From Romanomermis culicivorax (lineage: Eukaryota > Nematoda > Enoplea > Mermithida > Mermithidae), in the NCBI GenBank assembly GCA_963922205.1, contig CAWUHX010000291.1, positions 1-64,000 of the forward strand: a stretch of DNA of 64,000 nt. The letters run 5' to 3'. Shown in pieces: positions 1,041 through 58,900 of this stretch. Made by a program: the position numbers and the translations under genes. Positions within the stretch are counted from its first letter, which is position 1. Each line of letters begins with the position of its first letter. The notes beneath the pieces were generated by a model that saw only the letters and a list, made by a program, of their open reading frames with translations, searched no databases and had not been told where the DNA came from.

Positions 1041-4000
1041 GTGAAGATTATTTTTATGCAGAATGTCTACTTTTTTCCGAAGAATACACGAGGAAAAAGT
1101 TCGATTTTTTAACGACGCTTATTCTAGCTTATAGATCCTGTTCTAAATAACATTTACAGAAAACGAGAAAAGGATAGAGACGTCGAAGTGAAGAGAACGT
1201 CTCTAGGAAATCTCGGGACCTTCCATTGTCTTAGCATAACGCCTGATCTATATCCTTGCAATGCGAAAGATATTAGCTCAGTTATTGCTTCTTCTTTGGG
1301 TCTGCAAGCTTGTGTAGGATGTGTGGTTTTTGTGCGTGATTGTGTCTATGTCTAAAGCTCATTTCAGATCGATATCAAATTTTCAGACAGTGTAGTGGCA
1401 TGTACAGTGTATAATTTAACACGAACTGATTGATTTAAACTATATTTTTAGATGAAAAATTTCGCCAGTTGTACTCAATGAATCTACTGAGGCTATCAAT
1501 GTTGTTTCGAGTTTGTAAGCAGAACGACTAGCAAATGTAATATTTTGCCTACCGGTGAAATTGACTTTCAAAAACTCCTTCGCTTGTTAATATTTTTTTG
1601 CAACACTGCAAGAAGTAAGCTTGGGTGAACTGCAGATGTCCTGAAATTTTCTTTTTTTCTCGCTGATTTAGACATGGGAAAAGTTTCAAAATAAATCACA
1701 TTTTTGATGCTGTTAGACATCCTACGACTTTTAACGATATTATTATTCTCAACATTCATAAATGTTTTGCGAGACGTACTGGGCCCGGTTTCACCACAAT
1801 GTTACGAGTCTTACGAGTACTACGAGTGTCGAATTCCAGGAGTAAATGAGTTTCACCAGCTTCACTCGTGCTATGGGTGACGAGCTACAACCTACGGGTG
1901 ACGGACTGCAAGCTACGAGTAATGCAAGTTGTGCTACGGATGATGTGCTTTGAGTTACGGGTCCGTAGCAAGTGTTTCACCATTTTTTTCGTAGGACTCG
2001 TAAAATTATCATTTTATGGGTGTTTTTTGGCACTCGTTATATGGGAATTCGTAATGTTTTTATAATCGGATGGTGCAATCGGATTAGGAAATTTGTTCTA
2101 AAAATTATTAATTTCTAAGTTATTCTGAAATTTCATCAAACCTTGGAGAAATTTTCTCAATTCTTGTAAAAATTTGTTAGATTTTGTTAAAAAATATAAA
2201 AATTTCGAAAAAATTTTTCCTAAGTCTATGGAAAACCATTTTCATAACATTTTCGAAAATTCGTCAATTTTACAGAAACTTTCTAAATTTATTGTAAAGA
2301 TAAGTTAATTTTATTAAAAACATCCAAAAAAATGCAAAAAATTTCTAGATCTTTGCAGATTATTCATTTTTGTTAGTTATTTGTACGGAATGAAAGAAAG
2401 GCCACTTGAAAAAACTCGTTAATACTTGAAAAAATGTGTTACTACTTGAAAAAATTTGTTACCACCTGAAAAAAAAAATCTTTATCTTCGCACCTGACGC
2501 ACAACATTTTTTTCAAGATGCATCGCAAAAATTTCAAAATGCTTCGCAAAATTTTCAGGATGCATCGCAAAAAAATCAAGATGTGAGAGTTTTCCGATGT
2601 TTGACTGTTTTTCAATTGCATCGTAATTTTTTGAAATGCATCGCATAATAAGATAACATCTTGAAAAAATCAAGATCCCATCCTGAAAAAAAATCAAGAT
2701 CCCATCTTGACAAAAATTAAGATGGGTGGCACATTTCCGAAACTATACAATCAAAGGCGTTCCTCCACCCCTTTATATATTATGAACAGGAACCTTTCAA
2801 AGTGGATTTATAAGGTCACGGCTTGCTGGCAGAGGGCACTCTTGGTTTTTACCAGAGGGGGTGGCAGAGGCGGGAAGGTTATTTTGCACGGGAAATCCGA
2901 CGGACATATTGGTTTTTCATAAAAAATTTTATTCTTTTGGGTTTTTCAGTAAAATGTCAAAAATGCTTGTTTTTCACCCAAAATGCGATAATTTCGAATA
3001 AGTATTCAAATTATCGTTTTTGTGTCGGGTTGACAAAAGAAAACAAATGACAAAAATACACAAATAAATACCACTAAGCTACGAGCCTACGGACCCACTT
3101 CTGGTCCGTGAAAATCTCATCAAATTTACGGGTCCTTTCATTATCACAGTGATGGGTAACTCATTTGGTGAAACTGAACAGTCGTAAATTATGAAAAACC
3201 GTCGCTCGTAGCAGTCATAACATAAACTTTATTTTTTGGTGAAACGGCCATTCGTAGCACTCCTAGACCCGTAATTCATTGCTCGTAAACTCTGATTTTT
3301 GGTGAGATGGCCATTCGTAACTCTCTTAACATGGGACTCGTAACTCGTGACATATTACTCTAAATACGGAGTTTTGTGGTGAAACCGGGCCCGGTTGGAA
3401 TGAAAAGTTAAATTTTTTGAGTTCAAAAGCAGTGCATAATAATATGAAACAATAGTACGTTTTTCTTGAAATGCTTCCAAATTATAAGAGTGGAAAGCAG
3501 GTTTTTTAAGTACGGCGCTAATAAAGTTGGGCCTGTGCTATTGAACATTCTAGTCGTGCTATGAAAAAGTAATAAAAATTAAAGAAAATTTGTGTTAATG
3601 AGACTTGTGCTAAAAAACCGAGGTGGAAAGCTATACAAACATATATTTCTACGATTTTCTGCTAAAATCAGAAGTCACATTAGGACTGCATAATCGGGAG
3701 TATACTTAACTAAACTCAAACAATCCATCGAACAAAAATCTTACTGTAAAAGTTGTCTTGTAACAGCATCTGATGTAAGTACTGATTTTTGTCATTTTTT
3801 AAGTTAACAACAAGCATTTTATAGAAAAACAAACTATCGCCTCAGGCTGGCCTTTAAATGACCAGAATAAAGATATGTTTTAGCAGAGATAACATGTGTG
3901 CGGCTTTTCATTCTGGGGTATTCAAAGTTGCTCGCTGTTTGATGGGTTCTTCGATTGGAATCCAAGAAATCACACACCGACCTGTATAGATGTCATTGGC

Positions 4001-7000: not shown

Positions 7001-10000
7001 TGAATATCCGAAGAAAATATTGTGTCCTTATTCCCCGAATATCCCTTTCCATGAATGTCCCGATTGCCCGAAAGTCCCCATTCCATGAAGGTCCTGATTC
7101 TCCGCATAATGAATAAATTTCCCACTAGTTCTTATTCCCCGAAAACCAGGGATGGGATGGACCAACTTTTTTGACTAAATCAGTTCCGAATTCGGATCCT
7201 AAACATTAGATCCGAACGGATCGGGATCCTGTACATAGCATATACTAATGTGAATGAATAATCTTGTGTATCATGTTTAATTTTTCAAAATCAAGTTGTA
7301 TGGATCATAATTTCTTAGCAGTTCGAGAGTTATATGATAATCATTGAATGAAATGAGAAGCAAATTGAACTAAGCTCAAAATCTTCAGACTTTTTTGCAA
7401 GCTTCCATCTGCGTCGTGCAGGAATGACTGAAGAAATTCTGCGCTGAAAAAGTTTTACTTGTTCCAAATAAATATAAATTTTTACTTTCGGTTCGGATTT
7501 TCAGTCGGAAAATGATTGTATTAAATAAGTGAAGGAAGGGTGTTAAGATGGAAAAGTGGGATTCGACAAACTTTCACGTTTCAGTAATTGCGATTTCCAA
7601 TGCTTCGTGAGAATAAATAGTTTTGCATCGAGTAACAAATTTAACAGTAATTTATTTTTTGACAGTAGTTAAGTTCAACGACATTCACACTAATTACGGT
7701 GCGAATTTTGTGCGAAGTTTCGTGGAAAAATTTTTTTTGAACGGGAGGAACGTACAATTTATAATGTTTCGACGGAAAAATTGACAATGTACAACGCGCA
7801 ATTTTAAAATAGACCGTCTATTTTCGGGAAACGGGGTTTGATAATTTCGGGGAATAGAGACTTTCGAGGAGAAGGAAAAATCAATGTTTGATTTAAAGCA
7901 TCCTTGGAAGAAACCGGACTCAAGGGGAAATTAGGCATTCGAGGAATGAGGATACACCTATTCGTTAGACCTGCTTCTGATCGAAAAAATGAATCGGCGG
8001 TCATGACAAAGTAGCAAAAGAAGTAAGGCTGACATACTCTCAGTCAGGTTGCAATTAACACATAAAATTGCGTGTCTGAAAATGCAAAACAAACTACTTT
8101 TCATTTGTTTTTAATAACTACTGAATTTGGCAACTTGAAACGGATCCAAGACATACTGACTCAAAAAATGAAGGCCATTTTTTGATCATATCAAAGATAT
8201 TACATCAAATGTTGAACTACTTATTATGCCAATCTACAGTAAAGTTACTTTGTCCAGCATGTCCTTTTGCTGATATGCACAGTAAAAATTGACCTTATCG
8301 ATCTCAGATAATTTAGATGTTGAATATCAAAGGGTGTTGAGGCGAGAAAGAGTATTTTTTGTCAACTTGCTATTTCTGTGGGACATTTCAAATGATAATC
8401 AGTGGCAGAAAGTGGGTACCATAAATGAAAATAATGCTACAGTCTTCATGCCAAGTCCAGAAAAACAAGCTTTTCGAAAAATTATTTAGAATCGACTTCT
8501 GACCAGTGTCAATCGTCATAGCTCTGTCAAAAATTGAGAACAAAACTTTCCATTCGTATTTTTAAATGAATCACAACGAATTCTGTCGATTGACCTCTAA
8601 TTTGTCGAATTTTACCACAAAATTCTTTGTTCTTGAAACAGGGTGTCTCCATAATCGATTGTTCTGTTTGAGACATCTCCAGAAAGTTCCCTTATAAGCT
8701 TTATTCTTAATTTTTATTTGACAGCAAAATCATGTCATAAATACTGTCCCTATTATTTTTCGAAAAATTATTTTTCTCCATTAGCAGTCGTCTAACTTAG
8801 TGTGTTAGTCTATCATCTGAGACCGCTAAGATCAATGTTTATTGTGTCAGTTTACTGTAAATTGATAGTGAGCAGCTCAACACTTCATGTAATATCTCTG
8901 GTGTTGTCGAAAGACTGTATCAAATTAAGTCAACATGGATACTTGGGTCCTCGAAAAAAAACACCGTTTCAAGTTGTCGATATCAGTTGGGCCTGAGAAA
9001 AATAAAATTTTATTTTGCATTTCGGAAATACAATTTTTTTGACATTTATAGCTTGCAAACTCACCCTGAAACTACGTTGATTTTCCTTCTTTTCCTGCTT
9101 TACTATGATAGTAAATTTAATTCGCCATTATCGAAAAAAGTGTCGTAAAGGTACGCTGCATAGGTTTAACGCTGCCATGAAAACAGTGGAAGTGATGACT
9201 TTTTGGAAAATCATTCGATTTTCGCGACTTTACACTTACAAAGCTCGAAAAATTTATATTTATGAAAAAAATAATATCGAATTCGAACTCAACTACATAA
9301 GTTGCAATAAATGTGTAGAAAACAGGCTAAATTATTTTTTGAGCGTGCAATTTCAGGCGATCCTCGCAGAAATTAATTCTTTCAATATGGCCTTGTTTGC
9401 ACAAATGCCCCACCAGACTTTAGTGCTTGCTTTCTTTTATACAGACTGATCAATACTTGGATGTACGTAAAGTCCGCAAACATCAAAAACATCGCAAAGC
9501 CATCAGCGCCATGGATTACTTTTCTGATGAGGATGATGACGATCAATTGACCAGAGAAATAAGAAAGTCCAAAATTTTGAGCGAAATCGAACGTCGGCGA
9601 GAAAAACTTTTGAAACAAAGTTTGCCGTATGGGGCCGGCTATTCTTTGACGTCATTCGACTCCCGTATAGGTGGCGCAGGCGCCAGTGACTATTCGTCTC
9701 ACATTCCGCATTACGGTAGTTTGCCCAGGATGGACGCTTACAATCACTATGGTCAGGATTACGGGTCACTACCCCGGAGTAGCAGGTGTTGCGACCCTTA
9801 TTCCATTTACGGAACTCTAGGTTTCAGGCAAAAAGTCCATCCGATGTATCATTCAGATTTGGGCTACTTGTCAGATTTGCAGGATTACGGGATTGGCGAT
9901 AGGATGCTGAATAGCAGAAACATTACTATGAATACCCCCACTGTATCATATGATCAATATGGGCAAAGATACGCTAGTCGATCATTACCTTATTTGGATC

Positions 10001-13000
10001 AGCTGGATCGATATCATTCGGGCAAGTTATAGATCTTACTGGTTTCCAGTTGTCAGCTGACTCTACTCCACGTAAATTTTACTAAGCAAGCATGTCTGAG
10101 AGGCATACAAATTCTGGAAAATCACAAATCGTTAGGTTGAGACCAAATTTAGCGTTAAAAGCCGAGATTTCAACAATGTTATAACTCCATGTGTTACTCT
10201 GCTGAAAAATTGTTGTATGATTGTAACTTAAGGCCCCGTCTCGCTTTTCGATTCTGCACCATGTCACGCCGTACTGCGTGAAGTGTCTATACTACCAACA
10301 AGATGCCGTGCTATACTTCCGCGGTCATGTTGTGTCTTATTTTCTACGCATTTATACTTCACTCATTTTAAAATGACCGATGCAGCGATCCTTTTTGGAG
10401 GCATGCTCAACAGTAAAAAATTAGTAAACTTTATTACTGTAATAAACGGAGAAAATGTCTTGTCCATGAGCAGTAAGCAGAACAACTGAAAATTATCTCC
10501 CATAGCCTCGTTGAACAGTCAAAATTATTCGAGTAACACAAATCAGAGGCAAATAAGCATCATCATCTTTTTATGATTTTGGTATCCTCTTTATAACAAA
10601 AGAATTAAACGTTTTTCTACAGTATAATTTTCCATCAAATTGAACCACAGTTTCCAAACAATCTACCTGTCCAGGTTAGCGCAGTTGATAGCGCGTCTTC
10701 CAAGAAGATGGAAGGTTCGAGCCCCTCTTTTTGCAAAGCATTTTTCCTAAAGAAACAATAATAGCTGCTGATGGAAGGCGAGCTGACCAACATGCGCCAT
10801 TTTTCATGTGCGCCATTACTGAATGCGCATTGTTCATTTGCGTCATGATTCTTATTGCGCTAAAACAGTGTACGGAATGAAATAACGCATATCTAATGCA
10901 GTTATGAAGATCACCCAGGCTTGGCAAAAACCTGCAGTATTGTAACTTATGTGACAACCATACACTAGTCACAAAAACCCTAGTCACAAAGCCATAGAGT
11001 TGTAAATTATAATCAATCTGCAAATTTTTCGGATTTTGAAAACATTCTACATAAGTGAATTAAATAGGTGATAATCTACATCTTGTAATCTTTTTCATGG
11101 AATTTTCAGTATGCAAAAAGCTAAACCTGATTGCGACTTTCATGACATCATTTATCGATCAGTTGCTGCATTTATCGATCAGTTGCTGTATTTGGAGAAA
11201 AGAAGAAATGGAGCTGTGTAAAGAAAGGCTTACCTAGTAGAAATATTTCTTTTCTCACTTCAAAAACTATCATTACATGAATTTTCAGATTTCGTCATTT
11301 TGACCCGTTAACTCGAGCAAAATTTAGAAAAATGTTTACTGCCCTGTTACTAAAGATATTCCAGTTTCAAAGGCACAGGGCGATGAAAAAATATGATGAA
11401 AAACATCGAAGAAAATAACGAAAATTAAACATGACGAACAAAGTAGAAGTTAGAGGAAATGGAGACTGCAGAGAAATTTTTTATTTTTGTAAATTTCTGT
11501 CAATTGTCACCTTTTTACGTACAGATGCATCATTGTTTTTAGGAAGGTAAACACAAAGGTGGCGCATTCTGAAAAAGCGCATATGCAGTTGGCGCATTGT
11601 ACACATGGCGCAAATGCATAGTGCGCATATAACACTGGTGCATTTTGAAATCGGCGCAATTGGGCAGGGAGTAAATGGAAAAGCGCAAATGAAATCGGCG
11701 CTTATGGCTGCAAACCATCGCTTCACTGACTTGAAATTGACACACCTGCACATGGTGCAGCACTTTGCTACATTTAAATCATTATTTTCTGTCATTATTT
11801 ATCATTTTCCAATTCCACCTAAACTCGCTCAAATCTATTTTTTCTGTCAAAAAACGCACTTCATCACCTTTTTTGATGCACAAAATGATTAACAAAGAAC
11901 ATAAAAATTTTATTGTCACAGAATCTGGTAGTACATTCCTTTAGCTTTCGTAATAGGCATATCTTGTATATCAACAACAACAAAATACTTTTCCTTTTGG
12001 AAGCAACCCAACCAAACAAAATTGTCCATTATTGAGCATAAGGCAAGCTTTTGGTGATTTTCTTCAAAAAGCGTGGAGGTGATTTCATTTGCTGTTGCAT
12101 CAATCGATAGCTAAAAAATTAACGATCAAAACTGTATTTTTCATCTCGATTCGATAAAACTTCTGCACCGAACTTTTTAAAAAAATGAACTTTTCAATCT
12201 GGCATCGTGATTTCTCTGCCTTTTTCTGTAAAGAAGGTGCATGGATTCACGTTTGTGTTTTGCCATTTGGCGTGCATAATGTAGCAATGCCTTTTTGTGA
12301 CAAGGTCAATTTTCTGTAATAAATTGAAATACGTAGTGCTTTGAGAATAATTTATGTAAAAGATCGATGAAAAGGAAAAAATTAGACTAATCAAAGCAAC
12401 ATTCAGAAAATATAGGATTTCTGAAAAAAAGAGTCCCTATTATTTCAGTAGTTTTCCCTGGTGTAGTTCTTACTTAAAATTCCTTATATATTCTCAAGAA
12501 GTCTGGTGAATTGCAATTTCAACATCAGTTATTATGGGTATCGGTAAATACAAAAAATTATTGTCCTTCAACATTTTTCATCCTGACAACTCGAACAGTG
12601 AAATCCTCCAATCAGACTTTGTAGTAATGTCTATCAGGACAATGTTCGAATTTGCAATCAATTTTCATACTCCTTTAATAACAAAAGGTTGAAATTCTGA
12701 AAAACCAAATGTGCGTACAATAAATTTGTATGACCAAAATGATGTAATTTCTTTTCAATCATAGTTAAAAATTGGCATATCACTTTCCCACACAATATTA
12801 TTTTCTGTTGCATTCCAGAGAAAATAGCTGCTATATTTTTTTGAAAGACAATTTTGCATTAGTTTTGTCAGACATCATGGAAGCATTACGGATACGCATA
12901 AATATTTATACAATACTATAGTAAACAACTGACTATTTTAGAATTTTTCTGTAAAGCCCTATTCAGAAGTGAAAAATCCTAGGATTTTTGTCGCCGACAA

Positions 13001-44636: not shown

Positions 44637-44842
44637 TTAAAGGTCAACTATACTTCGCCGTATGGCACCACATTGATCTGCTATACTTCACCGGTGCCGT
44701 ATGGCGCTTGATGAGTGGCTGCTATACTTCACGCCGTATGGTGGTAAATGACAATAAGTAAATGAAAATGATAAGTAACTGCTATACTTACGTGCCGTAC
44801 GGCGCCATACAGCACTGTACGGCGAAATATAGTTGGCCCTTC
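44637..44842. repeat. Foldback MITE with CTATACTTCGCCGTATGG motifs
   Basis: AGGTCAACTATACTTCGCCG at the left and CGGCGAAATATAGTTGGCCC at the right are inverted. Between them CTATACTTC..GCCGTATGG recurs three times. A related piece lies at 10265-10325. Confidence 0.65.
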
Positions 44843-44849: not shown

Positions 44850-47390
44850 CAACGGTTTCATTTTCTCGCCAAAACTCAGCAAATTGGGTTTTAAAAGCCT
44901 AAAACCGACGTGAATCAGACGAAATACAGGAAAGCTAGCTTTTGATGGTTTTTCCGATAAACTTGAGCGAACTTGTTGATTTTAGAATGAGCAACTAAAA
45001 TTTTTCCCCAAGTTGAACACTGCAACCTAGCCTGTGCAAAAAAAGACACTGGCCAGAGCCAGCAATCGACTGGGTACCCGGGCCCGGCCAGTCAGACCAT
45101 GCCCGGCACCGTGCCCAGGCATAGTGTTTCAATGATTTGCCGAATGCAAAAAAAATTATCTTCACAAAGTTCAAAAATTTGTGAAGACCACTGAAAATTT
45201 TGTGAAAAAATTGTGATTTTGGTCACATACTTAGGCACAATATCAGAGATAAACTGATTGAACCACAAGACAGAGGAGCCCAAAATTTTTTTCGCCAAAA
45301 ACACCGATTTGGCGAAAAACAGTGACTTGTCTGATTTTCGAATTTCAATAGCACGTTTTTGAATATAATTTTTCCATTTTGTTCAATTATGAAAAACGAT
45401 TGAATTGAGTGCAATATCAGACAGTCGAACGTAGAAAAGGTTCATTTTCCAGCGTTCTAGATTATCAAAATCCAAATATAATTTTCCACGCTTTGGGCCG
45501 AAATTTTGTTTAATGAATTTGCCATTTCGCCCGAATTTATGAAACATCGTTCACTTCAAGATAATTTTCTAGCTAGTTGGCTGATTGAAGCGTTGTATAG
45601 TCAAATTAATAATAGAAAAGCAACCGAAAACTGGAGCGAAAATCTTTCATTTCCTAGAAATTCTACTGGCGATATCTCAGTGATCAGCCAATGTATAATA
45701 ACTGTATTTGATATATTATTCCCTCCGGCCCAATGCGCCGGAAAAGTTTTTGAAGTTTTGTAGTCTAGGACGCTAGTAAATGAATGTTTCCAAGGTTTAT
45801 TCCATGAAATTTTTCAGTCTAGAATGATGTTCAGACTTTTGAAATAACATGATGTTTTCAATCAGCTAACCTCATACATGTAATTGGGGAGGAAGTGTTA
45901 TAGGAAACTCACCCCCATCAAAATCGCCGGCCATATGGTAAGTTATAGGGACCCTCATACTTTTGGTCGGAAAAATACTGAAAAATGTCAATTTTTTAAC
46001 AACAAAATTGGTTAAAAACATTAATTTTCTGATCGCTCCACACCATGAATACATTTTTATGTTTTTTTAAAACAAAAATTACTGTTTTCTGAACCATTTT
46101 CGGTCTTCTTGGCTAACCTGATAGAAAATCAGCTTGAAGTCGGTGAGGTTTAATCGTAAATTTGGGCGAAACAGCAAGAAGGATAAATTTCTATTGATTT
46201 CAATACTAGAACGCTAAAAAATAAATTTTGTCAACATCAATTTCCTGGATAAGAGGTCTAATTTTGCAGTCAACTGAATTATTTTTTATATAAGAACAAA
46301 ATTTTAAAATCGTATTGAAAGGATGCATCGTGAAAACTCCCATGATATGAAAATCGACTTCTGCACCGTGCACAAAACGGCCAAAAAATAGTGCACGGCC
46401 TACAAAAACTGCCCAGTGCACAAAAAACCCTGGTTCAAATTCAAATGTGCATAAATAAAAGATCTATTTATATTTTTGACTGGAACAGTGACGTAGAGAA
46501 AATGTTTGAAACAATTTTGATTTCTTTCCCCAAATGGCGAGAAGCTCCATGCGAAAAGAGTACGTAAGATTATTTATGAACTCTATTTTCTGATGAACTA
46601 ACCAGAAAAATTTGACCAGAAAAGATGCATTTTGGTAAGAGGAGTTTTCGAAACTGTCAGAACGTAGAACAATATGGTATATATAAATATATGAAACTGC
46701 ACCTGAAACACATGATAATTAGGTGATGATTACATTCAAATAAATGAATACACTTTGAATATGTTTACAGTAAAATTTTAACAAATTTCAAATTAAGAAA
46801 ACAGGAATGTTTCTTGGAAGTTCACTCGCAAACGTATATAGTTGTTTATGCTTTTGAGCTATTACGGGCCTGACCAGTCAGGCCCGGCCGAGCCCGGCAA
46901 AATTTTTCCGAAGCCCAACCCGGGCCACTCTCGAGTCGGGCCGGGTGGCCTGTGCAAATTCCTGCAAGACCCACCATCTCGATGAAAAGCCTGAGGAACA
47001 CCCTAGAAAATTCTTGCCGTGCCTATCTGCTTGAAATAGGTACGGCAAGAATTTTAACATCGGTTTCACTAAGTTTGGTGTGTAATTCGAACATTTTCCA
47101 TCGTATTCTACAGACTTTGAACATTTTCATTATGCACAAAAACGCATAAATAAAGCGTTTGGGGGAATTTTTGAACAAAAAAGTAGTATTCAAACAAGTA
47201 GTATTTTATTCCACTCAAAGTCTTGAAAAAGTGGAAAAATTATCGAGTCTTAAAAATCAGTCAATTGATGTTTTTACTATTCATTCTTATTGAAAATTTC
47301 AAAGTTATATCAGCGATAAAAATGAAAAAAATTCGAAATTTTTCAATGCTGCTCGCATTTTTTTTTAATTCTTTCAGCGAATTTTCTTAT
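44850..47390. other. Intergenic transposon-rich region
   Basis: Between the scaffold gene and the MICOS gene. It contains GGGCCGGGC-rich transposon ends (45070-45120 and 46865-46945), a CCGGCCCAATGCGCCGG hairpin near 45725 and GTGCACAAAAAACCCTGG-type ends near 46420. An 85-codon open frame at 45506-45763 (KHRSLQDNFLASWLIEALYS) looks protein-like but has no known relatives to me. Confidence 0.45.
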
Positions 47391-47407: not shown

Positions 47408-47431
47408 ATGCCTACGAAACGTGTCGACGAA
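47408..47431 (+). CDS. moma-1: MICOS gene, exon 1
   Basis: Eight codons, MPTKRVDE, from the first ATG after the acceptor-like site to donor GACGAA/GTAAAT in phase 0. Too short to stand alone; supported by the join to exon 2, which completes the family's ELPIY motif. Confidence 0.75.
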
Positions 47432-49762
47432 GTAAATACGCTTCAGTCGCAAATATTGATTAATATTATACAAATTATTATTTTCATCAGTTGCCTATTT
47501 ACCCGACCGCCGAACCACTAGCGAATGAAGATGCTCAGAAAGTTTGTCATAAGTATGGAAAAGTGGAAGCGTACATTGGCGATTTTAGACGTTCGTATTT
47601 ATCGCCCATTTACGGCTTTTTCGTTAGTCAATTGTCAAAATTAGAAAATGCGTCGAACATCTCGAAGAAATATTACGCGAGTAAATAACGCTCAAAATTT
47701 CATTTAAATTCCCCTGTTTTTGGAATTTTGTAGATATTATGCCGTATTTTTACGATGAAAATAAAACCGACGTTACAAAAGCAATTTTTATCGGCGTTGC
47801 AGGAATGGGCGGTTTTTTATGGGGTTATAGAAGAGGTAAAATGTTTTTGTTTTACTTTTTCGGATTTTCCGGTTCGGTCTTTGCAACTTTCGATTTCAAA
47901 TTTTCGTTTTACAATGTTGAAACAAAGTGTTCGTACTGCGTACTTGAAAAAATGAGCGGTCTAAACACGTGTTTTAGATGTTTGCCTCAATAGTCGGAAA
48001 AATGGTTCGAAAAAAAATTCTTGTACTCTAAAATTTTTTGGACCTTTTATATGTTTGAATGAGTATTTTTTACCCAAAAATTGACATTGTCTACCTTTTG
48101 TCGTTCAAAAAGATATGTTTTGTCCATAGTATACATGTGAAAAATTAAATTTGCTCGAGTTATTTTTGTAACTCATCGCTAAAATATTTTTATATCGGAT
48201 CAGGTGGCTATTTAAAAAAAGTAACTTATCCGGCATTTTGCGCCGGATTAGCAGCCACATTTTGTTATCCGAATCAGTCGATTGATTTCGCCCGAATCGG
48301 CTACGCTCACGCCAAACAAGCGATCGATGAATTCGTTGGTAAATTTGAATTTTCATATGAACACAGGTCCTGGATCAGATCAATTCAAATTGGTCTGGAA
48401 TTTCATAGCTGTTCTTATAATTTTGTATTCCAAGCAGGATTTTTTTGTGCACTGCGTGGTCTGCCCACTGTACAATGATGTTTAATAAATTGAGACGAAA
48501 ATGTTTAATAAATTCAGGCAAGAAGGGCGAAAAGGTTCCGGCGCGAAGCGCCGAAATTTCAATGGATTTTGATATTAGAATGCTGAAAAATTAATTTTGT
48601 CAACATTTATGTCCTGGATAAGCGGTCTAATTCTGCAGTCAATTAAATCATTTTCCATACAAAGCAAAGTTCAAAAATCATATTGAAAGCATTCAATTTG
48701 AAAACCTACATGATATGAAAATCGACTTCTGCACCGTGCACAAGGCAGCCTAAAAAATTTGTGCATGAGCTTCGAAAACTGTGCTCAGTGCACAAAAAAA
48801 CCCTGATTCCAAGACTATCTGTTCTCAAAATTTTGGCTTCCAAAACATTCTGTTCTTAACGAAAATGCATTGATGTTTCAACTTTCAAGGAAATTTTTGC
48901 AAAATGCCAAATTCGATTCTGAAAGCTTGGCCGGAATTCTCTTAATTAAGATTTCCTAGTAAATTTCTTTTGTATAGATTGTTCATGTTTTTCAGATCCA
49001 AAACTTAAATAAAAACAAACTTGGCATAGAGTCGAATTGAACAACATGAAATGAATACTTTTCATGCAAACAGTTTGATATTCTCAATGCATTTGACATT
49101 AAATTATGAGCCACGATCAAGCTTTCCTGAAGCCAGATTTTTTCTTCTCCAAAATTTTGTGTTTTTGCTGAAATTTTGCTGGACATATTCGATTTCTTTG
49201 CCAAAAATTGTTGCAATCTGACAAGGCGTTTTGTGCCCTTTTTTATTGAAGCGCAACTATAGTCTTTTCTCTCGAAATCACTGTAAATATTTACAGCAAA
49301 GGATGCGAATACTATTTCATATTTTTACGATTTCCTGCTAAGCCATATATGTCGCATAGAGATGGAAATTTGTGAGCCTGCTCAACTCAATCTTGCTGAT
49401 TTTTGAGTAAAAATTCCTTACCTTAATTGTGCTTTGTCCATAACGTTTATTTATCATATTAACAGACATTTTTAAAAAAACCGGCTATTAATGTTCACAG
49501 GATTTTAAAAAATTGGCATTTTTCGACCCATAAATTCCAAATCCGCATAGAAAAAAATTGATAATTGAAAGCTTGGAAAAAGTCCAAGAGACTTGAGAAA
49601 GTACGAAGAAACGAAGTTGTTGGAAGTCCCAAACTGGCACTTTTGTCTCTCCTGAAAATCATTATTGACCTTGTTTCTTTTTTCTTAGAACCACCAACGC
49701 CCAAACTCAAAAAGACCAACCAATCGATCGACAATTCTACGAATGAAAAATCGCTGAAATAA
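47408..49762 (+). CDS. moma-1: MICOS subunit, ApoO/ApoOL (MIC26/MIC27) family; five exons
   Basis: Gene-level entry joining 47408-47431, 47491-47680, 47734-47835, 48204-48338 and 49689-49762 in phase, 174 residues. The protein opens MPTKRVDELPIYPTAEP; the ELPIY start of the mature region is typical of ApoOL. It then has a predicted helix region, a glycine-rich membrane segment (AIFIGVAGMGGFLWGY), a basic link (KKVTYPAF) and a second membrane segment with FCYPNQS, matching the family's KKxxYP...YPxQ signature. Such proteins sit in the inner mitochondrial membrane and help form crista junctions in the MICOS complex; the nematode member is MOMA-1. Length is slightly below vertebrate relatives, mainly at the tail. 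The TAA stop overlaps an AATAAA. Confidence 0.85.
47491..47680 (+). CDS. moma-1: MICOS gene, exon 2
   Basis: After TTTCATCAG, phase 0, to GCGA/GTAAAT, phase 1. Encodes LPIYPTAEPLANEDAQKVCH and the amphipathic stretch through FFVSQLSKLENASNISKKYY, the matrix/intermembrane-space domain before the first membrane segment. Confidence 0.85.
47734..47835 (+). CDS. moma-1: MICOS gene, exon 3 (first membrane segment)
   Basis: After GGAATTTTGTAG, phase 1, to AGAG/GTAAAA, phase 1. Encodes IMPYFYDENKTDVTKAIFIG and VAGMGGFLWGYRRG. The GxxGxGG pattern is the glycine zipper that lets ApoO-family proteins oligomerise. Confidence 0.85.
48204..48338 (+). CDS. moma-1: MICOS gene, exon 4 (second membrane segment)
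   Basis: After TATCGGATCAG, phase 1, to GTTG/GTAAAT, phase 1. Encodes GYLKKVTYPAFCAGLAATFC and YPNQSIDFARIGYAHAKQAI. KKxTYP and CYPxQS are the most conserved words of the family. Confidence 0.9.
48500..48815. repeat. Element end with hairpin and GTGCAC motifs in MICOS intron 4
   Basis: Starts with TTCCGGCGCGAAGCGCCGAA, continues with the shared ATGCTGAAAAATTAATTTTG tract, and ends CAGTGCACAAAAAAACCCTG. The same order occurs at 46190-46435, so both are copies of one nonautonomous family. Confidence 0.6.
49257..49492. repeat. TAGTCTGTTTTT MITE copy
   Basis: Starts CTATAGTCTTTTCTC and ends ACCGGCTATTA, with the family's TTTTACGATTTCCTGCTAAG and GGAAATTTGTGAGC blocks. In MICOS intron 4, about 200 bases before the last exon. 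Confidence 0.7.
49689..49762 (+). CDS. moma-1: MICOS gene, exon 5 and stop
   Basis: After TTTTTCTTAG, phase 1. Encodes EPPTPKLKKTNQSIDNSTNE and KSLK, then TAA; a short hydrophilic tail. The stop codon is embedded in AATAAA (49758-49763), so the poly(A) signal may overlap the coding end; other signals downstream were not ruled out. Confidence 0.75.
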
Positions 49763-49808
49763 ACTCGTATCGGTCGTTACGATCTGTATATTGCGATTTA
49801 GCTATAAT

Positions 49809-50058
49809 TATAGTCTGTTTTTCATAAAATGCTTACAAATTGAAAAATATTAAAAATCAGTAGTATCGTTGAAATCGTTTTCACAAAGCTTTTACGGTTA
49901 GATTTTTTACTCAAAAAATTGCTAAAGGTTAGAAGAAAATACTCACAAATTTACGGTCCAACGTTACGTATGGTTCAGCCGGAAAATATAAAAATATGTA
50001 ATAGTACTTGCTTTCCACTTTAATTATTCAGGAGCATTTCAGAAAAAACAGATTATAG
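49809..50058. repeat. TAGTCTGTTTTT MITE copy
   Basis: Begins TATAGTCTGTTTTTCATAAA and ends AGAAAAAACAGATTATA; a complete 250-bp copy lying 47 bases downstream of the MICOS stop codon, so it may be part of that gene's 3' UTR. Confidence 0.8.
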
Positions 50059-50279
50059 AATAAATGCAAAATAGTTTCTTTTGTGCGTTCCATGTGAAAG
50101 ACAGGCGGGCTTACCCGGATTTGGATGTCACAGGATTGAAAATTTGTGAGCACAACTAACCTTGAACGACTTTCCGAGTAAAAAATCCTATTGTAAAGCT
50201 CTATGTAAGCAACGTCGATGCAGATCTTTACAAAAAAGAGACAAGTTTTATATAAAGGCAAATTACAGCTCATATTTTT

Positions 50280-52774
50280 ACACCCGGAAACTGTTTTGGA
50301 TTTTCCAAAAGCCGCGAGTCTAACGCAAAATTGATAAAGTTGTAGGAAAAAAGAAAATGCACAAAATCATAATTTTAAAAAACATTTTTCCGCATGCAGT
50401 ATCAAGATCACGAATTCTCCAAAATAATTACCGCACAAGTTGATTGGGGAAAATTTTTTACGTCAGAGCAGCCGGTCAAAAGACAAAAACAATCGAAATC
50501 CAAAAAAATCCTGGGTCTCTGGGCCAACCATTACCCTGCAATAGACAATAGGGCCTGAATTGAAGCCTGAACCTGAAAAAAATCCTCGGGCTGGGCCGAC
50601 CTATTTTTCGAAAGCCCGAAAAGTTTTGATGTGCCCGGTATTTAGTGTGCTTATGTTCGTTGTGATTACTGTATCAAATAAATTTTGTTTGTGACACCCA
50701 GCGTTTTTTTTGTACAAGCCTCTTTGCACCTGTACAAAGATCGGCCAAAAACTCTTTGTCAGAGTCGTTCTTTTGATGGCGAACTGGGCTGCAGCCCAGG
50801 GCCGCTAAGAATTTGGCGTTTCTAAAATTTTTTAGTGTGTACTTGAAGAATGCCTATCTCGGGGGCCCTCGATCAATTTTTCTCTTGTTGTACGCAAACA
50901 GTTCAAAGTAAATCATCTACCTAAAAATGGCGTTGTGTGCAATAAATTTTGGAAAAATTGAGGGCCGCTAAACCTGAGTTTGCCTGGGGCCGCTAAAACC
51001 CTAAAGACGGTATGGCTCTTTGTACGAAGAAATTTTTTTTTCAATAAAACATCACGATCTTTCGTGTTCTTCCGCACAAACCTTGTTCTTCTTGATAGCA
51101 CTTGAGTTCATGTCCTTCATAATCATTTTACAAATTAAGAAAATATACTCATACTCTCATAAATCTGAAAACTTCAGGTTAAACTTGAAATTTCTGAAAA
51201 TTACTTTCATGATGCTTCTAAATCGGAATCGGCTTCATGTTTAAAATTATGGTTACAAAAAAACTTGGAAAAATAGATTTTGACCTTCTGAAACGTACCA
51301 AAATTTGTCTTTTCCATACAGGACCGCCAACATTTTTTCTCCTTTTCTGGAAATTTTTCTCCAGAAAGCAAGATTTGTAGAAAAACAGTGGATAGACCAT
51401 TGCAAAGAATTATAAAATAATTCCGGCGGCAAGCGCCGGAAAATTTTACTGTATTTTCTGATATTAGAGCCTGAAGAAGCGTTTTCTGACCAATGTCGAT
51501 AAAATCTCTTTGTACTTCGTAACATAACAGAGATTTTACAAAGATCATCATAAAAATCTTTGTACGGAGCCAGAAATGTATGTCTCCTACAAAAAAAACG
51601 GTGGTTAAATGTAATTTTTTTCAGTTACTTGAAGAAAACCAAGAGATTTTCGATTTTTCAATTTTTCTAAACCAAAAAACTATGGACTAAGAAATTTTTA
51701 AAATCGGACTTTTGGATCGGGCTTCAGGCTTTGTTTTTTTTAATTGGGCCGGGCCTCGGGGTTAAAGCCCGATTTCGAACCGAGCCGGGCTCGGGCTTTA
51801 AAAAAAATTTTTGGGCCGGGCCGGAAATTCCAGGCCCGATTCAGGTCCTTACAGACACAAAGCATTAAAATTCACCGCCTATTCAAGTAAATTTGGTGAC
51901 AAAATATTTTAGCCATATTTCAGGGTCAAACGGTTTAGAATGACTCAAAAACAGCACATTATAGTAAATTTGAAAGGTGTTTTTCCCTGGAAAAGGAGGT
52001 CGATCGACAAAAGCCGCCGTTTCACCGAGGGAAATGCCACCTCGACTAAGACAGGGAAGAGCGCGAAATCGGTTACCGATAAAATTAAACTGCAGTAATT
52101 TTGCATTTCTGCGCCAAACCACTAAACCTCCAATCAGTACTTCGAAATGCACATTTTTTCACGCCGAGCGATTCGAACTAGGTCAGCTTTAGCAGGAATG
52201 TTTCTCTTGAGCAATACTGATCGAGTGAAAATCCTGGATTTGAGCGTATATTATTCTCTCATTTCTAAAACAAAATTTTCAATGACAATGGAAGGCTACA
52301 TTGATTTTTTATCACATGAGTACAACAACAAAGATGACGAAGTCACAAAAAACGTATAATTGGAGAAACCATATAAACAAATAAGCGTTTCAAGAAGTGG
52401 GGACGAGGGGTGTGGTCCTCAGATTTTCTATTTCTGCAGAGCAGCTTCCAACTTTACTGAATTCAAATTTCAATATTAGAAAACGTTCAATTATGAAACT
52501 TGAATTTTGAAATCACCTGAAATTTTAATTGAAAATGTGCATCGAAGAGTAAAAAGTGGGAGGGAGATTTTCCGACCAAACTTTAACCACTCATAACTTT
52601 AACGGGAAGTACACTATTGTAAATCATGTTCTTGAATAGATCACGACGTGATCTATCGATTCATATCCAACTTACTGTAGGAAAAAATTCAGTTCGATTT
52701 TAAAGTGTCACGAATTGTGTAGCGTCAAACGCCCATCGGGTGAGACCACTACCGACCCTTACTCTCGATAATCA
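50280..52774. other. Convergent intergenic region, transposon remnants
   Basis: Separates the 3' ends of the MICOS gene and the minus-strand gene. It includes GGGCCGGGC-rich ends (50520-50640, 51716-51850), a TTTTTTTTGTAC-type inverted pair (50703 and 51590) around AAGATCGGCC/CTTTGTAC repeats, and a TTCCGGCGGCAAGCGCCGGA hairpin at 51421. A GC-balanced island at 51975-52150 is open on both strands and unassigned. Confidence 0.5.
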
Positions 52775-52990
52775 TCACAAAATCATATCTAAAAACTCAT
52801 TTTCTCTCGATGTACTCCTTTCCAACGGTACCGGTCCCTCGGGCAACCGAAGCTCCACTTGCGTACCAAAATATTGTCTCAGTAGTTCAATTGAATTCGG
52901 ATAATCGGCAACGACGTGAATTTTCTGAACTGTGCAACTTTCAAGCATAGATTTCAGGTCGGGAGGGATGATTCGTTCGTTTTCTTGAGC
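52775..52990 (-). CDS. Minus-strand gene, last exon
   Basis: Minus-strand acceptor CCGTTTCAG, phase 0. Encodes AQENERIIPPDLKSMLESCT, VQKIHVVADYPNSIELLRQY and a tail ending ENEFLDMIL before TGA. Codon-like composition contrasts with the AT-rich flanks. Confidence 0.8.
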   Translation of the reverse strand, partial: AQENERIIPPDLKSMLESCTVQKIHVVADYPNSIELLRQYFGTQVELRLPEGPVPLERSTSRENEFLDMIL

Positions 52991-55900
52991 CTGAAACGGT
53001 GATACTGAGGTACTGAATATAGGAGGTTCCATCGCTCTATAATCTGTTTTTCTTGGAATGTTTGTATTAATTGTGAAAAACAGGTAACATTTCATATTTT
53101 TATCATTTTCAGCTACATCTTACATGTCGCATAAGAGCTGCAAAGATGAACAAATTATTATTAAAAAAATTAGTAAGGTTTATGTAGGCGACTTTGATTG
53201 TTGTACTCATTTTTTCATTTTTTTAATCACAAGCATTTTGCGAAAAAACAGATAATAGTAAGTTTTTTTCCAGATTCAAAGAATGATTGATATAGCAAAG
53301 GAATTTTTTGACATACTACAGACAACTTGGAAGATTTTAGGTAAAAGGCAAGCTCCGAAAAAACATTTAACGATTATCTACGAAAAGATTTGACCTTATT
53401 CAATTTTGAATAAATTTTTCGATCTTCCTGTGGTTCTTGATTAATAACGTATCAAAAGTTCTACCGTAAACAAAAATCAGAAGTTCATTATTTTTCATTG
53501 GTGTTGAAACGTTTTTACAATAAACTAGATATAGTCTGTTTTTCTTGAAATGCTTCTAATAATGAAAGTGGAAAGCAAGTATTATTCCAGATTTTCACTA
53601 TTCCCTGATGAACAATAATATCATATAGGACTGGAAATTTGTGAACATACTGACCTAACCTTTAACAATTTTTCGAATGGAAAATTTTACAGTAAAACCT
53701 CTATGTTATCGATTTTGACGACAGTACTGATTTGTGTCCCTTTTTTGGAAGCATATTTTATAAAAAAAACAGACTATAGACAAATACTGTTCATTACAGA
53801 AGTTTGTGAAAAAGTAACGGAATTTATTTACAAAGTAGCGGTTCACTATGATACATACGATTGGGATGCAGGAGTGCATCAGCGCTACCATAGTCACAAG
53901 CGCTACCAAATTAGAAAAAAACGTTTACACCTTGCGTTGAAAGTTACAGTTGCGGTATGCGTTCTGTGTGGTGAAAATTATTTTCTTTGCCACTTTTGTA
54001 GAACAGTGCGCAAAAATGGTTAAAAAGACGCAATGTTTTCCCCGACTGGTAAACCTTATACCTTAGTAGAAACGATATTCAATGAAAGTCAAAATGCTTG
54101 AAATAACATCGTGATTATCTACTGGTTGTTTAGGTAGGAATATTTCAAACAAAATTATCGGTTCGTCCGTTCGCTGACCGTTGACGAGAAAAATGTCCGC
54201 ATTGATTACGGTAACAACCTTATTAATAATTTTTCGGGTGTTGAACTTACTTTCATCGGCTCGCTGCATCGACCATTTGAAAAGTATAGATGACTATAGG
54301 TTTTTTGATATACCTGCAGATCGAATTGTTGTTACACAGAACAAGAGCTTAAATCTGTAAGCTAAAGCCTGAACTACTATTTTAATCTGTTTTTTGACTG
54401 CTCGTAAATATCAAGAGTGGAATGTAAGTACTATTTCGTATTTTTACAATTCACTACTTTCGTCAGCCAAGTTGAAAAATTCTATTTAGAAAACCCCACA
54501 ATAAAAGCTTCGGTGTATGCGACTATGAAGGGTCGTGGTTATTTTTCGTCATTTTTCAGTCTGCAAGCATTTTATAAAAAATAGAATTGCTTCTAGTTGT
54601 TGCGGATATGATTCAGTTTATCAAACCTGAACCGTATGCAGCATAAAAATTCGGGTATGGTGCACGAGCGCTACCATAGTCAGAAGCGCTACCAAATTGG
54701 AAAAGAATATCCTATATGCGTTGTGTGTTGGAAGCAGAATTTTCACACTCGTTTTGCGTCAGCATTCATCACGAAAATAGGGACGATTATGAATCAATTT
54801 TTTTCATATTATATCTTACAAGTTATCATCATGAAAAACAAAACGCCATTTTTTAACCACTAAATGACGCATATAACGCAAAAAATTATGAATTTTGTGC
54901 ATCAAAAAATTTAAAACATCAACCTGTGAAGCATTGACATCAAAATTATTGACCTGCCAGAGATTACCCGTAATTTGCATAAAATTCAAGCGCGCATTGT
55001 GAATACGATTATCTAAATTGACATAATCGCATTGAACCATCGATTTTTTTAATTTAGTACTTAAGAGAGTTTTCCGTGTCCATTGTGTATGATGCGAGTA
55101 AAGGAATGCTGTCTGGTCTGGTATCTTGTTTTTTTCTGATTCCTAAACTTCTGTCTATGATTTGATGATTTTATTACTATCACCGTCTTCATTAGGTCAT
55201 TGTTCAGATTTTTTGCATACAACATTGTTTTATACTTGAATACCACGTCCAAAATAACATGAAGTGTGCCGCATTTTGTTATTGTAACAGGGTGGTCGCA
55301 TCGATGACCATTTCTGTGGATTTTATTTTTTGTAGGATTTTCGGATTTTGTTGTTGAACAGGACCATTTTGTTGTGCCTGTCATTGTTTTATAAACACGA
55401 TGCATGATACCACTTTTAACACAAAGTGTACGGTGTTTTTTTCTAATTTGGTAGCGCTTGTGCACTAGGTAGCGCTTGTGCACTAGGTAGCGCTCGTGCA
55501 CTAGGTAGCGCTTCTGCATCCCAATCTAAAAATTCATTAGGGTGGCGTTGGAAATGTCCATTAATAGATCAATGGTCAAGATGATCAATTGATTAGAATT
55601 GCTTAAATTACACAGAAGCCTCTGGACAGAGTTATTTCGAGTGGTTAGAATGACGACTGGTCACTTTACCTTCCAATGCATGATCTGAAATTGTGTAAAT
55701 TTCAAAACCTTGCCATTTTCAAATATTGAGCAGAAAATTATGCATGGTTTGTTCCGCTCAGAAATGCGTGAACTATACTATAAGGAACTGTCATAGAAGC
55801 GATCGAATAGGTACGCTGCCCTGCCTGTGCCTAAACAACAACTTATAAATTTAGCTTCAGGACGAACAAAAGTGCTTAATTTTTGACCCACTCTAAAGCA

Positions 55901-58900
55901 TTTTTTCTGTGCCTAAAATCCGAAATTCTAGGAAAAAATTTAAATTTCTGACTTTAACACGGAGAAGCATGGAGGAAATCAACTTATGAACACCATTTTG
56001 TAGATTTCGGAATGCTGTCGTCTTCTAAAATGATTCTTATTCCGCCGGCCGAATAGGTGTCGACACTGTGAATCCGTGAATTGGAAGGTATGAGTCATTT
56101 TTGAGATCGCCAAAATATAAACATGAATCTGTGGCATGCGGAACGATGAAAAACTTCCTTTGCTTACCGTAATATAGCAATTTTATGTTCATAATATTTT
56201 TGGATGCTCGTTAACTGTGATGTTTCAAAACAATAATCACATTACTTACTATTCCATCCCTATTAAAATCGTGCAATAAGAACGATCCAGTACCCGTTGC
56301 AGATCCAACGAAATAAATGATCAAATTTCTGATTACGGTCGTTTTAGTCGCACAAATTTTTTCGATAGCCCTTCTTATATAACTCTTCTTGGCGGCGTAA
56401 ACGTTTGTAAAATCTGAAAAAACTGACATGCCGGAAATTTGGTACCGGGACATTAGAGTGCGAGATAATGGGGCGCGGATATTAGAGCGCGGACATTTGA
56501 ACGCATGGACATTAGAGTGCAGGACATTAGAGCGCAGGAAAATGGAGCACAGAAACTTAGATCGGAGCAAAATAAAAACCGAGAGTGAAATGATCTGAAA
56601 AATAACTATATTTCTGCTCGAAAATACTGATTGTTCAAATTTTTTATGGCTCTGAAGAAGTTGATGTTACTACATTTTTCCACCATGGAGTATTTCTTCT
56701 CATCTTTCGTTCTTTTTAGTTTTTCTTATTTCGCTATTCTTACTTTTTGTCGTCTCCTTTTCTTTATATAATGTCTTGTTTGTTTTCATTTTCTTCTGTT
56801 TTCGCTTTTTTATTTCTAATATCTCATTGTTCGTTCACTCTATCATTACTCGTATTCATATATGCATAGCATAGAAATTCTGCTGGGGTTCAGCATGGAC
56901 AGGGCGTGTAATACAAAATTTTTTTCTCCATTCTTGATAATAAAAAAAGGTATTAGAAGGGTCTTGTAACATCCAAACATCATATTTTTACACTTATATT
57001 AGTCATATATGTGAAATAATTTGCTTAGACAGCATTTTTAAAAGTTCTAATGTTACTCATTTCGAATCAAATGTGCTTTGATTAGAAAAATTGTTAAACT
57101 ACAGCGTCATTTCCATTTTTCTGACGACTTTCAATCCTCTCTTGCTCATTTTCCTTTGTCAGTTTCTCTATCATTGCTAGGGTAGTCAAATCTGCTGGGG
57201 GTCAGCAAGAATCTGCTGGGGGTCAATAAAAATCTGCTGGGGGTCAAAACCACCCCAACCCCCCCCCATGTGCGCGTATGCTCGTATTCTTTGTTTTTAC
57301 ATTTTTATTCATCTTTCCATTTCCGTTTGTAAAAACACTTTGGGCGGTAAGTTTGTTGGCGGATTAAAGGCCGATTATAGTAATCGACGATTAAACGTCG
57401 CTTATAATTCAGGATTAAATTTTTTTCGTAAGTTTGTCGGCCGATTAAACGTCGATTAATTTAATCCAGGATTAAAGCAATCGGTAAGTCCGTCAGCCGA
57501 TTAAAGCTCGATTATCATAATCGGCGATTATAATAATCTGAGTTTTCAATCCTGCCCCACCCCAGGTTCAAAAAGCCGATTATATCTGTTATTGCGACTG
57601 CATAGTCGGTTTAGTAGTTGAAAAATAAATGTTGTTGATTTTTTGGACGATCTATACAAGGATGAAGCAGAAAATCAAGTTTAAACGAAAATTAAGCAAA
57701 AAATCAAGTATAAATTCGTCATTCCCTGGATAGATCGAATCCGATGCAAGCATATTCGAATGAGAAGTTCTGGTCGCGATTTAAACTATGTAAGGACAGT
57801 GCAAGAGAGCTATTTGAATAAAAAATTAATAAAACTAAAAAATAAACAAAAAAATTTATTTAAAAACGAAATTTTTTTAATGAAAGTTCTATAAAAATGT
57901 TCTAATAAAAAAATTGAAACCCTACAGTAAATGATATTATTTAATTTTCTTCAAAATAGTTCAATTTCTTCAGAATCAAAATTAGTGGTTTTCTGTGGAC
58001 ACGTGGATTGATCACGAGTAAAATTGATAAGGATAAATTCATGACGAAAGGCGAAGTACTGAAGGAAAAGCTGTTCACCTACACTATAGACAGTATACGT
58101 TGTACAGTTTTCAATAAGCAATTATACTTTTAATCCTGGATTATATGATTTTAATCGGCGATTATATTTTTAATCGGCCATTACATAATCGTCCTTTAAT
58201 CGGCTGACGAACTTACCGATTATTTTAATCGCCGATTAAATTTTAATCCACGATTACATAATCAGGGATTAAACGTAATCCTGGATTATTTTAATCGGCC
58301 ATCAAACTTACCGCCCTTTGTGAGTAGATGAACGGAGGAATAAATACTTTTCGAGAAATAATTAGTACGAAGATGGGGTCCGCGCATTTTCCACACGGAA
58401 GTTGCGAAAGGCATAAAAGATTGCAAATATTTGACCATTGAATCAAATTGTTTCATTTTGTTATTTTCGAATTTATCTTGTATTTCTAACTCGCATTCAG
58501 AATAATATACACACAAAGAAAAAGTGGCAGCTTTTGAAATAAAACTGCTTGCTTAATATTCTTTATTAGTTATGTTAAAAAACAATTCAAGATTCGCCTT
58601 CAATGAAGACCAGGGAACGTGGGTTCGAAAAATTCAGTTTTTTTCAAATGCACTCTGATGTCCCTGCGCTCTAATGTCCGCGGTCTATTGTCCTGCGCTC
58701 TTTTGTCACGCGCACTAATGTCCCGGTCACGCCAAAATTTTAATCAAACTTTAATGAATATTGAATCCGCTAAAAATTGAGATAAGCTACTTTAAATCTT
58801 GTTTTGGATAAATCTCAACTATATCCATCGTCTGATGCTCACTTTGATACGTTTTAAAGAGTCCATGCAGCATTGGAAAGTATGATTCTAAATTAGCAGA

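Follow-up and report, generated by a model that had tools for sequence, protein, structure and literature searches.

Foldback-type DNA transposons with reiterated end words in a 64-kb window of the Romanomermis culicivorax genome

A window of 64,000 nucleotides from the mermithid nematode Romanomermis culicivorax (assembly GCA_963922205.1, contig CAWUHX010000291.1; C291:1-64000) carries numerous foldback-type elements whose two ends are mutually inverted and hold arrays of short words. We consider it likely that these elements are mostly non-autonomous cut-and-paste DNA transposons with two-layer ends and that the words are putative protein-binding sites. An original prediction, made from the window's letters, had listed nine pairs of inverted ends, which we name E1 to E9 in order of listing, and had taken them for at least eight unrelated foldback elements, each ending in arrays of its own word. 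The observation was confirmed, and its interpretation was partly supported. Element borders, target duplications, and filled against empty sites for E4 and E12 could be read directly. Genome-wide searches were made in the same genome (a 359.1-Mb assembly of 595 contigs); the window has a G+C content of 28 to 41% per 2 kb, mostly about 36%, and none of its features is assigned a strand.

Word arrays and inverted ends

Each named word was counted in its own element, with mismatches allowed, and the count was compared with 200 shuffles of that element. All nine words exceed the shuffle maximum, and for seven of them the shuffle mean is below 1. Two words, CGATTAAA of E9 and CCTGATCCTTAA of E5, are weak as single words because they are common elsewhere in the window (76 and 43 further places, respectively, at the same tolerance). 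The end test compared 6-mers in 200 bp per end with 200 shuffles, using a stretch about 250 bp inside for E6 and leaving the nested E5 out of E4. Inverted-orientation sharing between the two ends lies above all 200 shuffles in 9/9 pairs, so that nine pairs of mutually inverted ends do exist close to where they had been placed. When each end is tested separately, 12/18 prove repetitive at no more than 2/200 shuffles; E2L, E2R, E3L, E6R, E7L, and E8R are not repetitive on their own by this 6-mer test.

When 240-bp windows were scanned without bias for repeated 7-mers, 100 of 1,063 lay above the 99.9% shuffle level, with 1.06 expected. These merge into 28 regions, 13 of which lie on ends of E1 to E9; others led to the further elements E10, E12, E13, E14, and F, and the ends E2R, E3L, E7L, and E8R were missed. 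The predicted number of array-bearing elements therefore holds as a lower bound, since E10, E12, E13, and F carry arrays too. Further repeated-7-mer regions include those at 5581, 11041, 12961, and 50761.

When 19 arm sequences from ten elements were compared all against all at E 0.01, matches fell solely within one element in seven of the nine pairs (E2 and E3 excepted) and never across families. The words are unrelated in that no arm matches another family's arm, but the elements are less so than had been supposed, as a single superfamily can accommodate E1, E4, E5, E9, and E12. Tip sequences of E1 and E4 are closer than any of 300 shuffles and form the best of 66 tip pairs, followed by E4/E6 (3/300 shuffles).

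The copies of the tip motif (chosen by inspection) are strongly polar. All 45 copies in E1, E2, E3, E4, E7, E8, E9, and E12 have the predicted polarity, with 25/25 forward in the left halves and 20/20 reverse in the right halves; the rejected pair X1, described below, was left out of this count. The exceptions are E5, in which polarity is mixed, and E6, whose tip motif is not repeated in its array. The words had also been described as often palindromic. By a strict measure, a palindromic second word occurs at no more than 1/300 shuffles in E4 and E9 and in the elements N2, A77, and A81 introduced below. The excess is not clear in E1, E2, E3, E5, E6, E7, E8, E12 (92/300), A78 (50), or A80 (22), and it is absent from the controls M and X3; a looser measure gives an excess in E4 and E12 (10/300) alone among the window elements.

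The view of these elements as foldback-type DNA transposons is supported by inverted ends, tips, and duplications. Single insertion is demonstrated, or nearly so, for E6, E4, E5, E9, and E1; for E7 and E8 the argument comes from their perfect tips, and for E2 and E3 it is weaker. The proposed check of flanks for target duplications was positive for E6 (8/8) and for E4, E5, E9, and E1 copies, whereas none was seen in the window copies of E2 and E3 and no clear one in those of E7 and E8. A tip-plus-duplication scan of the window returned 53 matches against 4 to 12 in five shuffles; many of them are artefacts of AT arrays or palindromes, and the named elements alone were used. A TWA scan gave 7 matches against 1 to 8 in eight shuffles, of which E5 (14/14) alone was used, and a CWG scan of the window gave no matches.

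PHIS-like elements and their transposase-bearing relatives

E1 and E4 (CWG duplications) and E5, E9, and E12 (TWA-type) fit the PHIS superfamily, namely, NuwaI and PIF/Harbinger. As described in PMC4482050, these groups have CWG or TWA duplications, GG-rich tips, a DDE transposase, and a Myb-like second protein, and the PHIS set here shares the duplications and, in its transposase-bearing members, the DDE transposase, of which E1 and E4 carry none; the terminal inverted repeat (TIR) of NuwaI measures 12 to 61 bp and usually starts GGG, and that of PIF/Harbinger starts with A or G. A difference is that several tips here begin GGC, not GGG: E4 has GGG on the left only, E1 and the transposase-bearing A79 have GGC, A77 has GGC/AGC, and N2 has CAG/GAG. 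In addition, the main text of that paper uses neither "tandem" nor "subterminal".

E4 (26221-28720; tip GGGCCGGTATTAC, word AGCTGCAGCTTAA) is NuwaI-like and splits a copy of M, a dispersed miniature inverted-repeat transposable element (MITE), leaving model positions 2 to 81 on its left and 80 to 244 on its right (break at 80-81). CAG, read by eye, stands on both sides of E4, with the right tip six bases short. M itself is about 250 bp long with TATAGTCTGTTTTT ends (copies, e.g., at 49808-50057, 53530-53779, and 63238-63484) and its 16 window matches (E ≤ 1) include the two halves split by E4. Nested in the left array of E4 lies the PIF/Harbinger-like E5 (26412-27827; word CCTGATCCTTAA), with an inverted tip AGGCCGATGTATAG that matches 14/14 and starts with A and with TTA/TTA flanks. 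Inside E5, at 26734-27229, is an AT-only 15-bp minisatellite, TTAAATTTTTTAATT.

E1 (1782-3391) is a NuwaI-like foldback MITE with the word TACGAGT, whose tip GGCCCGGTTTCACCACAA is reiterated inward (inverted tip 19/19, counted from 1781; three motif copies on the left and three on the right, all in predicted orientation). The window copy is flanked by CTG/CGG. In the window and five fetched copies, 6/6 left ends are preceded by CWG (CAG or CTG); the right tip fell within the fetched length in one of the five, and that copy is flanked by CAG/CAG. E9 (57342-58316; tip GGGCGGTAAGTTTG, words CGATTAAA and AATCCNGGATT) is PIF/Harbinger-like and nested in E8; its inverted tip matches 14/14 and starts with G, and the window copy is flanked by TTT/TTT. 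Among 20 E9 loci, the window included, we found 13 two-ended copies, 9 of them with an exact 3-bp duplication, which is TAA or TTA in 6 of the 9. E12 (44641-44839) is a PIF/Harbinger-like MITE of 199 bp that consists almost wholly of the word CTATACTTCGCCGTATGGC; its TTA target is empty in a paralogous copy of F near 43232, although the right copy of the duplication is altered.

First-look candidate counts in the genome, with 40 candidates scored for each family, were 197 for E1, 154 for E4, 321 for E9, and 384 for E12. The 292-bp arm of E4 is 88 to 95% identical in the 39 other scored copies.

A PF13359 search of the genome gave at least 154 DDE_Tnp_4 matches, from which we examined eight transposase loci. 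Six had the highest scores, L074 lies next to an E9 arm, and L081 came from ten with equal scores. Four of the eight, representing three families, hold clear PHIS elements with both ends present and a word array directly inside each tip. In L074 this element is N2, which is 3,077 bp long and inserted in an E9 copy (CAG/CAG by eye), so that the E9 of the window represents the empty site; L074 was accordingly rejected as an autonomous partner of E9, the transposase belonging to N2. The N2 open reading frame (ORF) matches DDE_Tnp_4 at 9.4e-30. Its word GGAGAAGTT/AACTTCTCC occurs 20 times, against a shuffle mean of 0.77 and maximum of 4, and all 20 copies lie close to the ends, at most about 170 bp away on the left and 205 bp on the right, with none between the arrays.

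The other three elements, A77, A78, and A79 (in L077, L078, and L079), are 2.8 to 3.3 kb long and carry arrays just inside both tips. A77 (flanks CAG, tip 13/14) and A79 (flanks CTG, tip 14/14) belong to the same family, and each has a DDE_Tnp_4 match in the PF13359 search; A78 has TTA flanks and a 14/14 tip that starts with G. The flank scan for these three required equal 3-bp flanks, and it also gave chance-like matches of 12 to 13/14 in L075, L076, L078, and L080. In N2, A77, A78, and A79, none of the 200 shuffles and no interior window compared reaches the level of the end arrays and shared end words. A80 (L080) has arrays on both sides with an incomplete right tip, and A81 (L081) has a left array, its right end not being found in the 4 kb fetched. 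The predicted autonomous partners bracketed by arrays were thus found in part: four of the eight loci do contain transposase-bearing PHIS elements of this build, but these are superfamily relatives, not proven partners of the E1 to E9 families, and some have broken frames.

E6, hAT-like elements, and other repeats of the window

E6 (36547-40198) behaves like a Mutator-type foldback, with 8- to 9-bp duplications and a long TIR. Its arms are 92% complementary over 467 bp, and its window copy has the duplication TCAAAATG (8/8). The word GTGACCAGTGGTCA stands hundreds of bases inside each tip, the array covering about 320 to 750 bp on the left and 340 to 590 bp on the right; this array is therefore not the element border, and the predicted position of arrays at element ends holds in the sense of "at or near the ends" but fails for E6. 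The genome yielded 59 E6 matches, and 40 of 241 candidates were scored. In 20 E6 regions we called 13 two-ended elements, with an exact 8- to 9-bp duplication in 4 and a 7/8 match in one; two calls have wrong partner ends, and two (L015 and L025) share flanks. The longest ORF in eight E6-bearing loci is 146 amino acids.

Array units have been gained and lost in tandem in E6. A 31-bp unit in one arm is present in 4 copies in L010, 5 in L013, 4 in L022, and 2 in L011, and these four E6 copies are 94.5 to 99.5% identical outside gaps; L010 and L013, at 99.5% identity, are one 31-bp unit apart. (L012, a copy 74 to 76% identical, was aligned but left out of the unit comparison.) Since near-identical copies differ by whole 31-bp units, the arrays grow and shrink by tandem duplication. 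The prediction of one amplifying mechanism gains this much from E6, though the trait is seen in several superfamilies.

Three further elements are hAT-like. E13 (35705-41481; tips CAGYGTTTTTTT, word GTGCCAATTGGCACAAA) encloses both E14 and E6 and has CAG tips; its ends share 46 inverted and 42 direct matches, neither reached in 200 shuffles, and no target duplication was seen at its flanks. E14 (36132-41041; words GGTTTTTTGG/CCAAAAAACC), which also encloses E6, has a 10/10 tip CAGGGTTGGC and an 8/8 duplication GATACAAT, and its array is not significant under a composition filter. F (42647-43418; word GTTGCACAGTGCAAC) is a MITE with CAGGKTTTTT tips and the flanks GCTGTGTT/GCTGGGTT (7/8); inverted sharing between its ends is 25, against 9.1 in shuffles (1/200). 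Because E6 and the hAT-like F, E13, and E14 are not PHIS elements, the reiterated end is a trait common to several superfamilies. No hAT transposase was found among the window ORFs scanned, no hAT family search of the genome having been made. Two other hAT-like MITEs lie at 48435-48805 (perfect duplication ATTCCAAG) and 19192-20032 (duplication CATAAGAT, 8/8; long G and C runs near the ends). The ORF 48149-48478, which overlaps the start of the former, has a weak match to ApoO (MIC26/27) that falls under the cut-off.

E7 (53859-55526; tip GATTGGGATGCAG, 18-bp word TAGTGCACAAGCGCTACC) and E8 (56441-58727; tip GGTACCGGGACATTAGAGCGC, a 15-bp word) both have perfect 13-bp tips, and a clear duplication was seen in neither window copy. 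An extra direct copy of the left end of E7 lies near 54655; of the four E7 tip-motif copies in the left half, two belong to this extra end near the middle, and four more lie on the right, all in predicted orientation. E8, the host of nested E9, has five copies on each side, also in predicted orientation, and its relative L067 has 15 in a row. First-look candidates number 470 for E7 and 1,122 for E8, and array length varies among the relatives of both. TA was rejected as the E8 duplication: 13 TA-adjacent hits were picked from 59 tip-motif hits in 20 loci (L064 and L065 being identical in sequence), and because 12 of the 13 continue as GGTA, TA may be part of the tip.

The remaining two pairs are the weakest of the nine. 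E2 (about 7022-7958; word GTCCYNATTCCCCGAA, with a 17-bp period on the left) has five copies on the left and two on the right against a shuffle maximum of 1, and it has imperfect tips. E3 (about 10783-11671; words GCGCAT and TGCGCCATTT) shows left-right inverted sharing of 43 against 15.1 in shuffles, none of 200 reaching 43; its tips are weak and imperfect, and its left end alone is not above shuffles. E10 (34021-34680; word ACTTGAAAAAATTTGTTACT) has a relative inside E1 at 2367-2923.

X1 (56857-60216) was tried as a further foldback and rejected. It is formed by two independent, oppositely oriented units of about 390 bp; both ends of such a unit carry the word CTGCTGGGGGTCAGCAA, or a variant of it, in one and the same orientation. 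Solitary copies of the unit lie at 20833-21190, 56857-57260, and 59776-60216, and the two that make up X1 are interleaved with E8. Independent left and right insertions, which the original prediction had named as the outcome that would speak against it, are thus found in this additional pair but were not shown for any of the nine, among which E2 and E3 are the weakest. X3 (29136-33342) is a long-TIR element with arms of about 800 bp that are 91% identical, a 189-amino-acid ORF, no clear word array, and a further tip copy at 33256-33342.

Other observations concern the surroundings. A hairpin such as CCGGCGC-NNN-GCGCCGG, mostly followed by AAAATTTT (by eye), recurs at 19529, 19897, 41951, 42073, 42432, 44177, and 51422 and inside 48435-48805. 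Word clusters rich in GGGCCGGGCC lie at 51690-51855 and 45050-45120. By eye, 10675-10745 is tRNA-like, with A-box- and B-box-like motifs and no ARAGORN call, and is perhaps the head of a short interspersed element. The window also contains an exon of a protein with a C2 domain; among solved structures, Piccolo is its best relative, with RIM second. Rfam and tRNA scans of the window gave no matches, nor did searches of viral_contigs (three tip or word patterns) and plasmids (one E6 arm).

A possible role for the end words

Because some relatives carry such words around transposase genes, the proteins that mobilise these elements probably dock at the words. Each end would have two layers: the terminal tip, with further copies following inward in unchanged polarity, and a second, sometimes palindromic word found in several families. 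In PHIS elements the transposase would bind the polar tip motif, and a Myb/SANT-like partner would bind the words, palindromic ones serving as dimer sites. With many sites at each end, occupancy would rise and pairing of the two ends would be easier. Arrays may grow by slippage or post-excision repair and may be kept because better-bound copies move more; the route of duplication could be slippage, unequal exchange, or abortive gap repair, the last of which has been proposed for MtPH-A6-4 (PMC2213677). What is known of PIF/Harbinger is compatible with such a scheme: these elements require a DNA-binding ORF1 product besides the transposase, Myb/SANT domains read about 6 to 8 bases (PMC9921582), and the Harbinger Myb-like protein binds TIRs (PMC9179366). 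Multiple internal sites are thought to bring the ends together in the maize Suppressor-mutator/TnpA system (cited in PMC9921582); that paper is sceptical of sequence-specific internal sites for mPing and mPong. Short reiterated end words fit Myb-like TIR binding, a step that we infer for this genome.

Several results weigh against this interpretation. A transposase domain was found in 0/148 window ORFs at E 0.01 (159 of at least 68 amino acids were listed), and no transposase-bearing copy was tied to any of the nine families. For E6, 122 MULE (Mutator-like element) matches were found in the genome and among those listed none is closer than 100 kb to a listed E6 arm, and 9 of the 13 two-ended calls lack an exact duplication. 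The N2 frame breaks upstream of its DDE ORF, L078 has one stop in the domain, and the weak Myb-like piece of N2 falls under the cut-off (PF13873, E = 0.13); L075 and L076, two of the eight loci, have no two-sided arrays with tips. A general palindrome rule had to be rejected, as a strict excess occurs in E4 and E9 alone of ten window elements. Finally, h48, hATg, and E14 show no significant array despite their 8/8 duplications; the array of X3 is weak at most and lies on the right (4/200), and M63 has one on the left (1/200).

An unlikely alternative is that the arrays are passive minisatellites, hairpin-prone and repair-prone ends having gained tandem copies with no binding role. The unit gain and loss in one E6 arm and the 15 consecutive units in the E8 relative would agree with this, as would the finding that word copies within an arm are about as different as those between arms in E2, E7, E8, and X1, which leaves no sign of arm-specific homogenisation. 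Passive growth accounts poorly, however, for a reiterated unit that is the tip motif itself in predicted polarity in 45/45 copies, for the same word at both ends with no N2 word between its arrays, and for an E4 arm kept at such high identity over 292 bp. We regard it as improbable that the arrays owe their retention to folding (hairpin DNA or RNA, used in self-repair or small-RNA production) and not to a role as protein sites. E12, the sole element folded, does fold better than most of its shuffles as a single strand (z = -2.75; 4/200 as good), but most 6-mers repeated within an E7 or E8 arm are in direct orientation (E7R, 59 direct against 2 inverted; E8L, 32 against 2), so that there would be no folding within an arm, and X3 has long, 91% identical arms with at most a weak word array. 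Chance pairing of independent, array-bearing solo insertions holds for X1, whose units stand alone and interleave with E8, and is very improbable for the listed pairs as a whole. Duplications, empty sites, nesting, perfect inverted tips at the outer ends, and two-ended copies of E6 and E9 elsewhere exclude it for E4, E5, E6, E9, and E12 and make it unlikely for E1, E7, and E8; E2 and E3 are not covered by this argument.

Reiterated end words as such are known from Galileo, Tm1, Muta1, and the Medicago element MtPH-A6-4, for which multiple protein-binding sites have been proposed (PMC3573991, PMC3169594, PMC5225508, PMC2213677). The closest likeness to E6 is found in Aedes aegypti, where Muta1 and other MULEs have 8- to 9-bp duplications and long TIRs; Muta1 combines a palindromic terminal motif with a 12-bp subterminal repeat present 9 times, that one genome houses ten long-TIR families whose subterminal repeats are short, and non-autonomous copies vary in repeat number, as here (PMC5225508). 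The Muta1 group has a MULE transposase, whereas here E6 alone resembles it and no transposase was tied to E6. The foldbacks Galileo, Tetris, and Tm1 also have internally repetitive TIRs (PMC3573991, PMC4079207, PMC3169594), with 1 to 9 units of a motif most often 14 bp long in Tm1, and Galileo's authors saw multiple binding sites as a convergent trait that could be selected. However, Galileo has a P transposase and Tm1 a MULE transposase, none was found for Tetris, and none of the three is PHIS. MtPH-A6-4 is a PIF/Harbinger element, but its unit is 60 bp in one plant subfamily (PMC2213677), and the words here measure about 7 to 31 bp, vary from family to family, and in many cases contain the tip motif. 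The literature covered, with subscription papers and RepBase reports outside its scope, gave no example of such two-tier arrays in a NuwaI or animal PIF family; the density of arrays and the two-tier arrays in NuwaI/PIF families of an animal genome would thus be new.

Beyond the docking of proteins at these ends, a more tentative extension can be entertained, which we hold to be possible though not probable: the array word of each PHIS family might be a private address read by a co-evolving Myb/SANT-like partner, new specificities letting families coexist without cross-mobilisation, array length tuning mobility, and the two-tier end acting as a modular targeting code. Consensus-based repeat annotation may split such elements into satellites, MITEs, and hairpins. 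Taken as a whole, they form a natural set of families in one genome, with and without transposase, in which the end words differ and the architecture is the same, and this would make the co-evolution of transposition proteins and end sequences directly testable.

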